64,000 nt of DNA from Acidimicrobiia bacterium (GTDB taxonomy: Bacteria > Actinomycetota > Acidimicrobiia > Acidimicrobiales > Bin134), in contig JAJDUJ010000019.1 in the NCBI GenBank assembly GCA_022826705.1, positions 1-64,000 on the forward strand, given 5' to 3'. Positions within the stretch are counted from its first letter, which is position 1. Every line of letters begins with the position of its first letter. Positions 2,699 through 49,973 of the stretch are shown in pieces. Position numbers and translations under genes: made by a program. The notes below the pieces were generated by a model. The model did not search any database, was not told where the DNA came from, and saw only the letters and a program-made list of their open reading frames with translations.

Positions 2699-3220
2699 GT
2701 GACGGGCAGGCGACTCGGCTTGTCGATTGGCATCGCGGTGGTGGTGCTGTTCGCCGTGTTTTGGATCGGGGCCACCATCTGGTTCTTCGGCGACGAGAAC
2801 CCTGACTGGCTGCAAGACCGGGAGTGGGTGGCCGATGCCGAGGCCCGATGCGCCCAGGCCCGCGACGAACTGGACCGGCTTCCCCAAGCCCTCGATCTGG
2901 AGGATACGGACGACCAGGCCGACAAGATGGACGATCGGGCCGACCAGATCGAAGTCTCGACCGCAGTGCTGGCCGACATGACGGCTTATTTGGCCGCGTC
3001 TGCTCCGGGCGGCGATGACGGTGAGCTGGTGGGGTTGTGGCTGGGCACCTGGGAGACCTATCTCAACGACCGTCTGGCCCACGCCGAGGCCCTCCGAGCC
3101 GGAGAAGACCGCCAGTTCCGAGTGAGTGTGGAGCGAGGAGAAGGGGTTGACGCCCTGTTGGACGCCTTCGCCGACCGCAATCGGATGCCCTCCTGCGGCG
3201 ATCCGCTGGATATCGGCTAG
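2699..3220 (+). CDS. Hypothetical membrane-anchored protein
   Basis: This 173-residue protein starts with GTG, preceded by a GGGAGA ribosome-binding site about 9 nt upstream. One hydrophobic helix (about residues 7-29, GLSIGIAVVVLFAVFWIGAT) should anchor it. The remaining 140 residues are acidic and predicted helical, rich in Asp/Glu (for example DLEDTDDQADKMDDRADQ), and contain one conserved-looking Cys near the end (PSCGDP). The topology suggests an extracytoplasmic soluble part. I recognise no family. The stop codon overlaps that of livF in the tetranucleotide CTAG, so the two genes converge with no space for a terminator. Confidence 0.7.
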   Translation: MTGRRLGLSIGIAVVVLFAVFWIGATIWFFGDENPDWLQDREWVADAEARCAQARDELDRLPQALDLEDTDDQADKMDDRADQIEVSTAVLADMTAYLAASAPGGDDGELVGLWLGTWETYLNDRLAHAEALRAGEDRQFRVSVERGEGVDALLDAFADRNRMPSCGDPLDIG

Positions 3221-3972
3221 GCGACCTCGTCGCGGACCCCCAGGAAGGCCCGCCGGACACTGGGGTCGGCCAACAGGTCTTCAGAGGGGCCCTGGTAGGT
3301 GGCGATGCCTTGATCGATGACGTAGCCGCGGTTGCTGGCCTCAAGGCCCTGGCGGGCGTTCTGCTCGATCATCAGCACGGTCAGCGAGATCTCCCGGTTC
3401 AACCGACGGATCGTTTCGAACACCTCCGCGGTCACCAGGGGTGAGAGGCCGGCGGACGGCTCGTCCATTAGCACCAGTTGCGGCTCCCACATCAGCGAGC
3501 GTCCGATCTCGATCATTCGCTGCTCGCCGCCTGACAGCGTGCCGGCCGCCTGGCGGGATCGGGCGGCCAGCTTGGGAAACAAATCGCACACAAAGTCGAT
3601 GCGCTCGCGAACCCGAGTCTTGTCCCGGCACTGGTACATGCCCAGCTCCAGATTCTCGTACACGGTCATCTGGGCGAAGGTGCTGCGCAGTTGGGGCACG
3701 ATGGCGATGCCCGCGGTGGAGAGCGCGTCCTGAGGGGCGATGCTGGTGATGTCGGCACCGTCGCACACCACGGTCCCGGCTCGTACTGGCACCAAGCCGT
3801 ACACCGCCTTGAACACCGTGGACTTGCCGGCGCCATTCGGGCCGATGACGCAGACGATCTCGCCTCGATGGACTTCAAGGTCGATGCCGCGGATGATGTC
3901 GTGCCCGGCGACGTAGCCGGCTCGCACCGACCTCAACTCGAGAAGCGGTCCCCCTGGCTGGGCCGGGCTCAC
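3217..3972 (-). CDS. livF: Branched-chain amino acid-type ABC transporter, ATP-binding subunit LivF
   Basis: Cytoplasmic ATPase of a hydrophobic/branched-chain amino acid (HAAT) family importer. In 251 residues it has Walker A GPNGAGKST (44-52), signature LSGGEQ (146-151) and Walker B LVLMDEP (166-172), then an H-loop region. LivF-specific features include EQRMIEIGRSL and the C-terminal PSVRRAFLG. The GTG start overlaps the stop of the LivM-LivG fusion gene by GTGA, so the two are translationally coupled. It is the last gene of the importer operon. The substrate is not defined by sequence: HAAT systems also carry amides, urea and aromatic acids. Confidence 0.93.
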   Translation of the reverse strand: MSPAQPGGPLLELRSVRAGYVAGHDIIRGIDLEVHRGEIVCVIGPNGAGKSTVFKAVYGLVPVRAGTVVCDGADITSIAPQDALSTAGIAIVPQLRSTFAQMTVYENLELGMYQCRDKTRVRERIDFVCDLFPKLAARSRQAAGTLSGGEQRMIEIGRSLMWEPQLVLMDEPSAGLSPLVTAEVFETIRRLNREISLTVLMIEQNARQGLEASNRGYVIDQGIATYQGPSEDLLADPSVRRAFLGVRDEVA

Positions 3973-5867
3973 GGGGTCTCCACCCCGGCTGTGCTTCCGC
4001 CGCCTTCGGGCGGGTCCTGGCGGCCTTGGGCCCCGAAGTAGGCCTCGATCACCGCGGGCTCCTCCATCACTTGGCGAGGGGTTCCCTCGGCCAGCTTGCG
4101 GCCGGAGTCGAGCACCACGACCCGCTCGCAGAGATCGGCCACGAACTGGACGTTGTGCTCGACCATCAGGAACGACACGCCCTGTTCGGCGTTTATGGAC
4201 ACCAACCGGTCTTTGATGTCCTCCACGAGTGTCGGATTGATGCCCGAGGTGGCCTCGTCCAGCAGAACCAGGGTTGGATTGCTCATGAGCGCCATGCCGA
4301 TCTCCAGCAGTCTCCGCTGGCCGCCGGAGAGAGTGCCGGCGGGCTCGTCTGCCATCGGGGCCAGCATGAGGAATTCCATGAGCTGCTCGGCCTTAGACCG
4401 GGTCGCAGTGTCGGTTCGCTGGAACAGGCCGCGCACGCCGATCTTGCCCCACTGCAAGCTGAGCTCCATGTTCTCGCGCACCGTGAGGTCGCGGTACACC
4501 CGGATGACCTGGAATGTGCGGGCCATGCCCATACGAGCGACCTGATAGGGCGACAGCCGGGTGATGTCGGTGGTGCCAAGGCGAATCGACCCGTTGTCGA
4601 GGCTGTGCAGTCTGCTGAGGCAATCGAACAGCGTGGTCTTGCCGCTCCCGTTGGGGCCGATGAGCCCGACCATCTCACCGGAGAAGACCTCGATGTCGAC
4701 CCCGTCGACCGCGGTGAGCCCTCCGAATCGCTTGACGATGCTGTTTGCCTCCACGACCCGAGTGCGCTCCTGGGACGGCCCGGCGCGGGCTTGAGCCGGC
4801 TCAGCAGGTCGGAGCTGGCGGTCGTGGCCGCCCTCCGACTGGACATCCTCCTCGGTCTGAGGGACCGACTCGGTCGCCCCCCAACGCCACAGCTTGCGAA
4901 GCGATACCGCCCGAGCGTCGAAGATGCCGACAACCCCTTTGGGCAAGAACAGCACGATCAGGATCAACAGCACGCCCTGGGCGACGAGGTGGTAGTCGAG
5001 CAGGTTGGTCCACAGCACCTCCCGCAGCCAATACAGCCCCACTGAGCCCACAATCGGGCCGATCACCGTGCCGAGCCCGCCGAGGAGCGTGCCCATGATC
5101 GCATCGATGGTGCGGGTTTCAATGAAGGCGATATCGGGGTCGACGAAGGTGTTCTGGTAGGCCCACAGGCCGCCGAAGAGCCCGGTGGACGCGCCGGCGA
5201 AGCTGAACACGGCCACCTTGAGCCGAGTGGTGGCAATCCCCCGCATCTGAGCGCCCAGTTCGTCCTCCCGGATCGCCACCAGCGCGGCGCCGAATCGGGT
5301 TCGGCGCAGCCACCACGTCAACGCGATCAGCCCCACCACCAGCGCCAGTTCCAAGTAGTAGAAAAGCTGGCGGTTCAGGTAGGGGGGCAGGGTCAGGCCT
5401 ACGCCTCCGCCGGTCAGCCCTCCCCATGTCCTAACGATCTCCCGCATCGCCACGAACGTGCCCAGCATGGCGATGGAGAAATACGGGCCCTTGAGGTGCA
5501 TCGTGAACCGCCCGATCAACGCGGCCAGCGCCCCCGCCACCACCATTCCCAGCAAGATGGCCGGTATCGGCGGCCAGCCGATACCTAGGCCGTTGGATTG
5601 CAGCGACATCAAGATCGCGGTCACGTAGGCGCCGATTCCGAACCACACGGCGTGGCCGAAGTCCACGTAGCCGGTGAACCCGCCGGTGAGATTCCAGTTG
5701 ATGGCCACCGCCACACCGGTGAACATCAGCGTGAACGTGAACAGGGTGGAGTCGCTGGTGCCCCCGGCCAGGGGGAGCACGATAAGCCAGGCGAGCGCGC
5801 CGGCCGCGGCGATCCGCACTATCAAGCGCCCTCCAGGGCCGCCGAGCCATTGCCGCAGCGGGGTCAT
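3969..5867 (-). CDS. livMG: LivM-LivG fusion: HAAT-family ABC permease fused to ATPase
   Basis: A 632-residue fusion. Residues 1-320 are a LivM-type permease with about 8-10 hydrophobic helices and the cytoplasmic coupling loop (about 195-211, VAIREDELGAQMRGI). Residues 321-375 are a charged linker. Residues 378-632 are a LivG-type ATPase with Walker A GPNGSGKTT (404-412), signature LSGGQRR (513-519) and Walker B LVLLDEA. The ATG at 5867 was chosen because it forms an ATGA overlap with the upstream livJ-livH stop and begins a normal LivM N-terminus. The same reading frame stays open upstream to 8108, but that extension is noncoding. LivM-LivG fusions occur in other bacteria. The partners are the LivJ-LivH fusion and LivF. 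Confidence 0.92.
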   Translation of the reverse strand: MTPLRQWLGGPGGRLIVRIAAAGALAWLIVLPLAGGTSDSTLFTFTLMFTGVAVAINWNLTGGFTGYVDFGHAVWFGIGAYVTAILMSLQSNGLGIGWPPIPAILLGMVVAGALAALIGRFTMHLKGPYFSIAMLGTFVAMREIVRTWGGLTGGGVGLTLPPYLNRQLFYYLELALVVGLIALTWWLRRTRFGAALVAIREDELGAQMRGIATTRLKVAVFSFAGASTGLFGGLWAYQNTFVDPDIAFIETRTIDAIMGTLLGGLGTVIGPIVGSVGLYWLREVLWTNLLDYHLVAQGVLLILIVLFLPKGVVGIFDARAVSLRKLWRWGATESVPQTEEDVQSEGGHDRQLRPAEPAQARAGPSQERTRVVEANSIVKRFGGLTAVDGVDIEVFSGEMVGLIGPNGSGKTTLFDCLSRLHSLDNGSIRLGTTDITRLSPYQVARMGMARTFQVIRVYRDLTVRENMELSLQWGKIGVRGLFQRTDTATRSKAEQLMEFLMLAPMADEPAGTLSGGQRRLLEIGMALMSNPTLVLLDEATSGINPTLVEDIKDRLVSINAEQGVSFLMVEHNVQFVADLCERVVVLDSGRKLAEGTPRQVMEEPAVIEAYFGAQGRQDPPEGGGSTAGVETP

Positions 5868-8041
5868 GACGCGGTGGCGTCCACCGGACGCAGTCCTTTG
5901 AAGATGCCCTGGGGTCGGAGCACCAGCGCGGCTACCAAGATGACGAACGAGGCCACCACGGCCAGGTTCGTGCCCACGCCCTCTACGTAGAGCGCCAAGA
6001 CCGCCTCGACAAGGCCGAGCAGCATGGCCCCGCCCAGCGCTCCCCGAATCGAGCCCAGCCCGGCCATCGCGGTGATGGCGAACGCCTTGAGCGTGAGCGG
6101 CGGCCCTTGGAAGGGCTGAACGGCCAGCACCGGGCTCACCATCGCCCCAGCCGCGCCGGTGATGCCGATGCAGATGGCAAACGTGACCAGATACACCTTG
6201 CCCACGTCGATCCCGACGATGCCAGCGGCCTCCCGATTCTGCGCGGCCGCCCTGATGCCCTTGCCCAGCCGGGTTCGAGTCAGGAGCAGGCTGAGACAGC
6301 CGAGAATGCCCAACGCGATCACCAGTATCCAGAACTTGGTGACCGGCACCGTAAGGGTGTCGGTCACCCGCCAGCTCCCGTCGAGCGAGGTGCTGGACCG
6401 TCGGAAGTCCGCTGAGAAGATGAGCTTCATGGCGTTCTGCAAGATGATCGCCAAGCCGAACATGACCAGCAGCGACACCAGATGGGGCCGATTGATGACG
6501 TGGTTGACCAAGCCCCTTTGCACCACGTAGCCGAGAGCCATCATCAAGATGAAAACCGCCGGGACCGAGACGAAGGGGTCGATCCCCCACAGGTCGTTCC
6601 CCAGCCACGCCAGGTAGGCGCCGACCATCACAAACTCGCCGTGGGCGATGTTGATGACCCCCATCACCCCCCAGATGATGGAGAAGCCCAGCACCAGCAC
6701 TGCGTACATGCCCCCGAGGGCGATGCCGTTGACGATCGCCTGGGGAAGCTGGCCCAGGTCTGATACCTGGCCCACAGGCCTGGCTGATCCCATAGTCCCG
6801 TCGCCCAGGGGATATTGAAGACCGGCGGTGGCCGCGGCGTCGGGGGCGACAATCACGATCTGGCCGTCTTGCACCTGCACCGTGCCCATCGGCTTGGCCG
6901 TGTTGACGCCCCGCCCGTCGAAGCTGATCGGCCCGTAGAACGTGTTGGCCGACAAGTCCCTCAGCGCGGCACGAACGTCGTCGGTCTCGGTGGAGTCGGC
7001 AGCCTCGATGGCGAGGTGCAGGGCAAGGGCGGCCGCGGTGGCGCTGGCCGCCTGGTACACGGGCGGCTCGCCCCAGAGTGCTTCGTAGTAGGCGGCATAG
7101 TCGGCGGCGGTGCCGAAGTAGATGCCCTCGTAGGCCATGGTGGATTCCCACTGGGTGGGGCCGAGCACGCCGTCGATGTCGGTGCCGAGTTCCTCGATGA
7201 GCTTGGGGTTGGATGGGCCGACGGTGATGAGCATTCCGTCGGGCTGGAAACCCAGTTCTTTGGCCGAGTTCACGAACAGGACTGCGTCGTTGTAGTGACC
7301 GCCGCCGACGAAGATGTCGGGGCCGAGGTTGCGGAACTTGGTCATGATGGCCGAGACATCCTGGATGTCTTTGGGATAGGTCTCGGAGGCCAGTACCTCG
7401 ATGCCGTTGGCCTCGAGGTGGCGGGCTGCGCCATTGGCCACCGCAGTGGCGAACGAGGTGTCCTCGTGGGCTATGACCGCGGTGGCAGCCCCCCGGTCGG
7501 CGAGGGCCTCGATGCCGGAGCGGGTGTAGTCGCTGGCGATGGTGGCCACCAGGAACAGGTTTTGAAAGCCCCGTTCGAACATCGTGTCGGAGGTGCCGTT
7601 CCCCTCCACCATCAAGACGTTGTTGGCTTCGGCGATGGCACTGGTGCCGGTGGTGAGACCGCTGGAATACGGACCGAGGAGGAAGTCCACCTTGTCCTCG
7701 TCGATGAGGCGTTGGACGAGGTTGCCTGCGGTGTCGGCGTCCGACTCGTCGTCGTAGTACACGATCTCGGCCCGGTAGCGCCCGGCACCGATGCGAATGC
7801 CGCCGTAGACGTCGTTCACCCAGCGCACCCACGTGTCGTATCCCTGACGCGAGTCCTTGCCCTCCACCGCGTATTTGCCGGTCTCGCTCAGCGCGGCCCC
7901 CAGCTTGACAGTGCCCGCGAAGGCCCCATCGGCTGCTCCCGACGACCCGTCGCTGGTTGGCGAACTGCCCCGAACACAACCGGCCGTGAAGAAGAGGCAG
8001 ACAAGCAGAATGACACCAAACACCAGTCCGTGCCGTTGCAT
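5864..8041 (-). CDS. livJH: LivJ-LivH fusion: substrate-binding lipoprotein fused to HAAT permease
   Basis: A 725-residue protein joining two normally separate subunits. The N-terminus is a lipoprotein signal with lipobox TAGC (Cys22). Residues about 40-410 are a type I periplasmic-binding-protein fold of the LivJ/Leu-Ile-Val family (AALSETGKYAVEGKDSRQGY; FLLGPYSSGLTTGTSAIAEA). After a linker (about 411-428), residues 429-725 are a complete LivH permease starting at LPQAIVNGIALGGMYAV and carrying the INIAHGEF motif. Each transporter with two such chains would carry tethered receptors. The ATG at 8041 lies 32 bp from the Nudix gene stop, and the 3' end overlaps livMG by ATGA. The frame is uninterrupted, so this is not two genes with a missed stop. 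Confidence 0.9.
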   Translation of the reverse strand: MQRHGLVFGVILLVCLFFTAGCVRGSSPTSDGSSGAADGAFAGTVKLGAALSETGKYAVEGKDSRQGYDTWVRWVNDVYGGIRIGAGRYRAEIVYYDDESDADTAGNLVQRLIDEDKVDFLLGPYSSGLTTGTSAIAEANNVLMVEGNGTSDTMFERGFQNLFLVATIASDYTRSGIEALADRGAATAVIAHEDTSFATAVANGAARHLEANGIEVLASETYPKDIQDVSAIMTKFRNLGPDIFVGGGHYNDAVLFVNSAKELGFQPDGMLITVGPSNPKLIEELGTDIDGVLGPTQWESTMAYEGIYFGTAADYAAYYEALWGEPPVYQAASATAAALALHLAIEAADSTETDDVRAALRDLSANTFYGPISFDGRGVNTAKPMGTVQVQDGQIVIVAPDAAATAGLQYPLGDGTMGSARPVGQVSDLGQLPQAIVNGIALGGMYAVLVLGFSIIWGVMGVINIAHGEFVMVGAYLAWLGNDLWGIDPFVSVPAVFILMMALGYVVQRGLVNHVINRPHLVSLLVMFGLAIILQNAMKLIFSADFRRSSTSLDGSWRVTDTLTVPVTKFWILVIALGILGCLSLLLTRTRLGKGIRAAAQNREAAGIVGIDVGKVYLVTFAICIGITGAAGAMVSPVLAVQPFQGPPLTLKAFAITAMAGLGSIRGALGGAMLLGLVEAVLALYVEGVGTNLAVVASFVILVAALVLRPQGIFKGLRPVDATAS

Positions 8042-48707: not shown

Positions 48708-49973
48708 ATGGTCAACCGACTTGTTCCCGCTGCGACATCGATACTGCTGGCCGCGCTGCTGGCAGCCGCGTGCAGCGATGCCGACACCCCAGCCATCGGC
48801 GACGGCACCCTCGGCACGGTCACCGTGGGCCGGGGCGACTCCGTCCAAATCCGCTCGATCAGCTCCTTCGAGGACATGGGCGCCGGTGCCCGCGACTACA
48901 TCAACATCGTGGAGATGGCCATCGATGACTACGGGCCGATCCATGGCGAATTCACCGTCGGGCTCGGCGAGGGCATCCACGACGGGTGCTCAGCCGATGA
49001 AGGTCCGAGAGTTGCCGAGGCCGCGTTGGCTGATGACGGCGTGGTGGGGGTGATCGGCACATCCTGCTCGTCGACCGCCACCACCGCGGTGCCGTTGATC
49101 ACCGCAGAGGGGCTGGTGGTGATCTCCATGTCAAACAGCTCGCCGGCCCTCACCTCTGACCTGGCCGGCACGCCGGCCGAGCACTATCAGCCGGGGTACT
49201 ACCGCACGTCTCACAACGACCTTTACCAGGGTGAGGCGGTGTCCTCCTTCCTGCACGACACGCTCGGGGCGCAAAGCGCGGCGATTGTCCACGAGGGGGA
49301 CGCCTATACCCGAGGGCTGGCCCAGGCATTCCGCTCCTCGTTCGAGCGCAGCGGCGGCACCGTAACCGACTTCGTGGAGGTCAACTCGGACGCGTCTGAC
49401 CTGGCCGAAGTGCTGACCCGTCTAGCCGCCGGCAATCCCGATGCGCTGTACTTCCCGCTCACCCAAGACACAGCTGCCGAGTTCATCCAGGCCTTGAGAC
49501 GCAATGGAGACTTCGAAAACACGGTGCTGGCGTCAGGCGACGGCGTTCTGCACGACGCATTCTTGGCCTTGGACTCCTCACGGGGGGTGTTCGTCTCCGG
49601 TCCCGACCTCGACTTCGGCGGCAACGCCAACCAGGCCACCGGCGTGGACGCCGACCAAGCAGCCGAACGGTTCACAATCAAAACGGGGTCGCCGCCCCAC
49701 CGGGCTTTCTGGGCTCACGCCTACGACGCCACAACGCTGCTGCTCGATGCCGTCACCGCCGCATCTCGTATTGAAGGCCGCGAACTGGTGATCGATAGGG
49801 CGGGAATCCGTCAGTACCTCAACCAGGTTTCCGACTACCAGGGGCTCATCGGTGACATCAACTGCGATGCATACGGGGATTGCGGTTCAGGGCGGATAGC
49901 CATCATCGAGCACCTGAACCCCGACGACACCCTTGCCTCCCGGGACAACGTGGTCTTTCGGTTTTCCCCGTAG
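48708..49973 (+). CDS. HAAT-family ABC substrate-binding lipoprotein (orphan)
   Basis: 421 residues. Signal peptide with lipobox AAAC (Cys22), then a LivJ-type receptor fold: GVIGTSCSSTATTAVPLITA (ligand-binding Ser/Thr) and GAQSAAIVHEGDAYTRGLAQ. Two additional Cys near the C-terminus (INCDAYGDCG) may form a disulfide. It stands alone: no permease gene adjoins it, and the downstream genes are convergent acyl-CoA dehydrogenases. Sharing a permease with the nearby LivG-like ATPase or another locus is possible but unproven. Ligands could be carboxylates linked to the catabolic region. Confidence 0.88.
   Translation: MVNRLVPAATSILLAALLAAACSDADTPAIGDGTLGTVTVGRGDSVQIRSISSFEDMGAGARDYINIVEMAIDDYGPIHGEFTVGLGEGIHDGCSADEGPRVAEAALADDGVVGVIGTSCSSTATTAVPLITAEGLVVISMSNSSPALTSDLAGTPAEHYQPGYYRTSHNDLYQGEAVSSFLHDTLGAQSAAIVHEGDAYTRGLAQAFRSSFERSGGTVTDFVEVNSDASDLAEVLTRLAAGNPDALYFPLTQDTAAEFIQALRRNGDFENTVLASGDGVLHDAFLALDSSRGVFVSGPDLDFGGNANQATGVDADQAAERFTIKTGSPPHRAFWAHAYDATTLLLDAVTAASRIEGRELVIDRAGIRQYLNQVSDYQGLIGDINCDAYGDCGSGRIAIIEHLNPDDTLASRDNVVFRFSP

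Follow-up and report, generated by a model that had tools for sequence, protein, structure and literature searches.

A fused receptor-permease gene in Acidimicrobiia and the case for a HAAT-type ABC importer with a tethered receptor

In an Acidimicrobiia genome, the substrate receptor and one permease of an ABC importer of the HAAT (LivJ/LivH, branched-chain amino acid) family are encoded by a single gene, and it is very probable that the product works as an importer whose receptor stays tethered to the membrane part. The gene lies in a stretch of 64,000 nucleotides (contig JAJDUJ010000019.1, assembly GCA_022826705.1), referred to in full as the window. Receptor-permease fusions are known in other importer families; as far as the searches reached, the layout appears to be new to the HAAT family. 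A wider reading is put forward tentatively and may well prove wrong: that this is the first HAAT receptor-permease fusion to be described, anchored at both ends of the receptor and present in one copy per transporter, with a free receptor later copied out of it and some species running a tethered and a free receptor on one transporter.

A complete fused gene and its operon

The gene translates into 725 codons with no internal stop, as a preliminary description of the sequence had held, and both domains are complete, because the Pfam matches cover almost the whole profiles: 342 of 343 positions for Peripla_BP_6 (E 4.8e-53) and 268 of 269 for BPD_transp_2 (E 5.9e-32). At the N-terminus a hydrophobic stretch is followed by TAGC. 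The lipobox claimed earlier is thereby borne out, although at -3 the window copy (T-A-G-C) has T in place of the canonical L, and its relatives carry LAGC, LAAC or MAGC; from the motif, Cys22 is probably lipid-modified.

Table 1. Positions of the fused gene, its parts, its operon partners and related features at other loci
Feature	Position	Strand	Basis or remark
LivJ-LivH-type fused gene	5864..8041	-	translation, Pfam
Signal peptide with lipobox-like TAGC, Cys22	7976..8041	-	sequence; Cys in 25/25 full-length fused homologues
Receptor domain Peripla_BP_6, residues 44-393	6863..7912	-	Pfam, genome-wide profile matches
Linker, 13 residues (about 413-425), predicted disordered	6767..6805	-	homologue alignment, model
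Permease domain BPD_transp_2, residues 436-706	5924..6736	-	Pfam, genome-wide profile matches
LivM permease fused to LivG ATPase	3969..5867	-	start overlaps LivJ-LivH stop (ATGA, 4 nt)
LivF-type ATPase	3217..3972	-	start overlaps LivM-LivG stop (GTGA, 4 nt)
Free LivJ-type receptors	L057:10664-12034, L059:10813-12183, L016:4596-5816, L058:5971-7239, L061:5962-7239		receptor tree
Kinase/regulator pair directly upstream of livJ	L021, L039, L040, L050, L052, L053, L062, L065, L066		unfused loci, two phyla

The fused gene comes first in the operon, followed by LivM-LivG and LivF, so that three overlapping genes encode the transporter in three chains, as had been proposed. The LivM-LivG fusion is shared by the window's clade and three further loci (L014, L015, L017); in most relatives the two are separate genes. 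A second, stand-alone Peripla_BP_6 receptor lies at 48708-49973 of the window.

By every domain tested, the system is placed in the HAAT family. The receptor scores 181.5 bits with Peripla_BP_6 (cut-off 31.7), the two permease domains score 111.3 and 119.8 bits with BPD_transp_2 (cut-off 26.8), and there are two ATPases, one of them with a BCA_ABC_TP_C tail; a receptor on its own chain, which is usual in the family without defining it, is what the window system lacks. The earlier naming as LivJ-LivH survives at the family level only. The permease is closer to UrtB (191.9 bits, TIGR03409) than to LivH (105.4 bits, NF008011), and both scores fall below the curated cut-offs of 250.3 and 379; the permease family therefore does not fix the substrate. 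The genes flanking the operon gave no clue to it.

An AlphaFold2 model of the fused protein, built from an 80-row alignment, has a mean pLDDT of 81.8. Receptor and permease are ordered in it, and disorder is predicted for residues 1-38 and for 415-425, the latter with pLDDT values below 50; modelling the permease by itself from one sequence gave a poor result, which was set aside. In the model and by charge counts, five helices precede a positively charged coupling helix (589-612), and the C-terminus is positive. From the positive-inside rule and the order of the helices we infer that the permease has its N-terminus outside and its C-terminus inside, which is consistent with a receptor fused at that N-terminus. 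The attached LivG ATPase would likewise be well placed if the C-terminus of LivM were cytoplasmic. A search by sequence found no solved structure matching the permease part. For the receptor half the best solved match, by sequence and by fold, is SAR11_0655 (PDB 8wch, with L-pyroglutamate), a free protein only about 25% identical to the window receptor, and its ligand is not transferable.

Distribution and history of the fusion

Scanning 84,980 species genomes with the protein as guide gave 77 distinct loci, whose DNA was then read. The same unbroken fusion is present at 25 full-length loci and at partial ones, all of them in Acidimicrobiia-type metagenome-assembled genomes (MAGs) that belong to the window's clade. 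Every fused copy comes from a metagenome assembly; judging by names such as Candidatus Poriferisocius, many of the bacteria concerned are likely to be sponge symbionts. In a class-level sample the fusion occurs at an identity of at least 76% in 19 of 395 genomes, to which G265 adds one at 39%; with this 39%-identical fusion (L120) counted, the carriers number 20 of the 395, under at least four family labels. Within the window's genus the system is found in 7 of 22 genomes, including one (G008) in which the end of a contig cuts it short and a TAG is present. A profile search of the window's own genome (G000) returned 26 Peripla_BP_6 and 49 BPD_transp_2 stretches, and by position and frame length the window pair is the only receptor-permease pair in one chain. 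About nine BPD_transp_2 pairs share a long frame there (for example C1:207709-209487 and C6:435775-437526), so that HAAT permease-permease fusion seems common in this genome.

How did the fusion arise? In the nearest unfused relatives livJ and livH are adjacent, separate genes. At three of four sister loci (L028, L029, L041) they share a reading frame and are parted by a single TGA with no other stop, which makes the loss of one stop codon the likely origin. When receptor and permease sequences were concatenated and a tree of 67 rows was built, a single branch set the 25 fused rows apart, which amounts to one change, with an SH-aLRT support of only 71; a single origin is thus the simplest reading, if weakly supported. 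It is unlikely, though worth keeping in mind, that the history was different, with either two fusion events, one per fused subclade, or a single event followed by a renewed split in L028, L029, L041 and L060. The two subclades have a support of 99 each and their union just 71, as two origins would have it, whereas the tree, which is without bootstrap, requires a single change only. This alternative touches the history of the gene, not the working of its product.

In one subclade, the receptor tree indicates that the receptor was later copied out of the fusion as a free lipoprotein: five free receptors with about 75% identity group together (100/99) in a clade nested within the fused ones (Table 1). 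The free copy adjoins the fused operon in L057, L059 and L016, and no fused copy was detected in the genomes of L058 and L061. The free copy of L016 has an in-frame TAG stop, from decay or assembly error.

The fused and unfused loci also differ upstream. A membrane GAF histidine kinase and an OmpR-type regulator lie directly upstream of livJ at 8 of the 35 unfused loci with sufficient upstream sequence, and at none of 23 fused loci; because the loci are related, this absence is a correlation only. As speculation, the pattern would fit a receptor that had already ceased to serve another partner by the time it became tethered.

Within the HAAT family, the fusion was found only in this Acidimicrobiia group and on one contig that could not be placed, in keeping with the rarity expected from the preliminary description. 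That contig carries L120 (L120:67-2256), where receptor and permease are likewise fused at 39% identity; its linker is a different one, of Pro/Ala/Ser/Gly type, and a lipobox is not evident. Its host is uncertain, because the contig is only 3.2 kb long, its MAG has 8% contamination and its genus mates are without the fusion. Among full-length matches, the fusion was absent from samples of the phyla to which L038 (Chloroflexota, 301 genomes) and L083 (Desulfobacteria, 247 genomes) belong. Some candidates were rejected: in Caldilineaceae and others, tblastn rows joined both domains and the DNA revealed a stop between the genes, and a match on a Bradyrhizobium plasmid (H1) spans both domains where the permease is annotated separately. 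A different arrangement was seen in an actinobacterial MAG, where a separate LivH is preceded by two complete tandem receptors in a single frame (L068:58-2337). The open-access literature yielded no HAAT receptor-permease fusion, which is weak evidence of novelty.

The linker and the fate of the fused product

The fused gene is under purifying selection, judging by Ka/Ks values of 0.06-0.17 in both domains (window gene against five homologues), while the linker is far more variable. Among the fused loci the linker spans 8-33 residues between the matched cores and is often rich in Gly and Ser, and in all 25 full-length receptors the lipobox-like Cys is kept, 21-31 residues ahead of the core of the receptor. 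These linkers hold no internal start or Shine-Dalgarno sequence that is conserved, whereas the majority of unfused permeases begin with a start codon at the corresponding place. Since the Cys is invariant and the linker has neither a conserved start nor a ribosome site, it is likely that the receptor is doubly anchored, by a putative lipid and by the transmembrane part.

Could the two halves part company after all? Cleavage of the linker after export, which would leave the receptor as a free lipoprotein and LivH as a chain of its own, is improbable. The linker is disordered in the model, and a lipobox is kept that a tether would make redundant, both of which would suit cleavage; against it, the frame is open at all 25 loci in spite of the fast-changing linker, and a stop codon, such as the sister loci have, would be a simpler way to the same result. 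Two products could also result if an internal start yielded free LivH in addition. This is very improbable: some linkers, that of the window copy included, do contain ATG or GTG, but at positions that are not conserved, and a Shine-Dalgarno-like motif precedes any of these codons in one fused locus only (L011), while many unfused relatives have one ahead of the start at the corresponding place. That the gene is an assembly error or in decay, as the in-frame TAG near the contig end of one fused copy (L091, in G008) might suggest, is refuted by the 25 intact full-length loci and the low Ka/Ks.

Conservation also bears on two points raised earlier. The region 6700-6830, for which independent reads had been advised, is open in G013 (same genus, 99.6% identical) and in the 25 full-length homologous loci, drawn from many MAGs, which stand in for a read check. 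Separate genes among close relatives had been named as a possible sign of an artefact; they are indeed usual in the nearest outgroups, but the fusion is derived and conserved.

Working mode and comparison with known systems

The tethered importer is thus retained, and it most likely works like OpuA or GlnPQ. The following steps are proposed. An N-terminal signal peptide would export the receptor domain, and a short, flexible linker would hold that domain to the LivH-type permease, at an N-terminus predicted to lie outside. The receptor would catch a small solute and dock on its own LivH/LivM pair, and hydrolysis of ATP by LivG and LivF would drive import. Provided that LivH and LivM form a pair, as is the pattern of the family, each transporter would carry exactly one tethered receptor.

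The closest relatives in composition are LivJ/LivHMGF and UrtABCDE, which share with the window operon a Peripla_BP_6 receptor, two BPD_transp_2 permeases and two ATPases. In these the receptor gene is separate, whereas in the window operon it is fused to the permease, and LivM is fused to LivG too. The fusion is in itself genetic evidence that the N-terminus of LivH faces outward, and the closely similar free and tethered receptors of sister clades, in one subclade within the same operon, provide a natural comparison.

What the window protein shares with the studied tethered importers is a receptor and a permease in one polypeptide, joined by a linker that is predicted to be flexible. In the glycine betaine importer OpuA, receptor and permease are covalently tethered by a short unstructured linker of 11 residues (PMC11065425), and in the glutamine importer GlnPQ the receptor domains are tied to the permease by a flexible linker of 19 residues (PMC8025302). 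The 8-33 residues of the window-type linkers are comparable, and this counted in favor of the tethered reading. The receptor and permease families of both importers differ from those of the window protein, and each chain of the GlnPQ homodimer carries two tandem receptors. OpuA has its receptor at the C-terminal end and consists of two identical fused chains, hence two receptors; being homodimers, the studied tethered importers hold two or four receptors. In the window system, by contrast, the receptor sits at the N-terminal end, and each LivH/LivM pair is expected to have just one. Such a heterodimer with a single tethered receptor, if true, would separate the effect of tethering from the cooperation of receptors.
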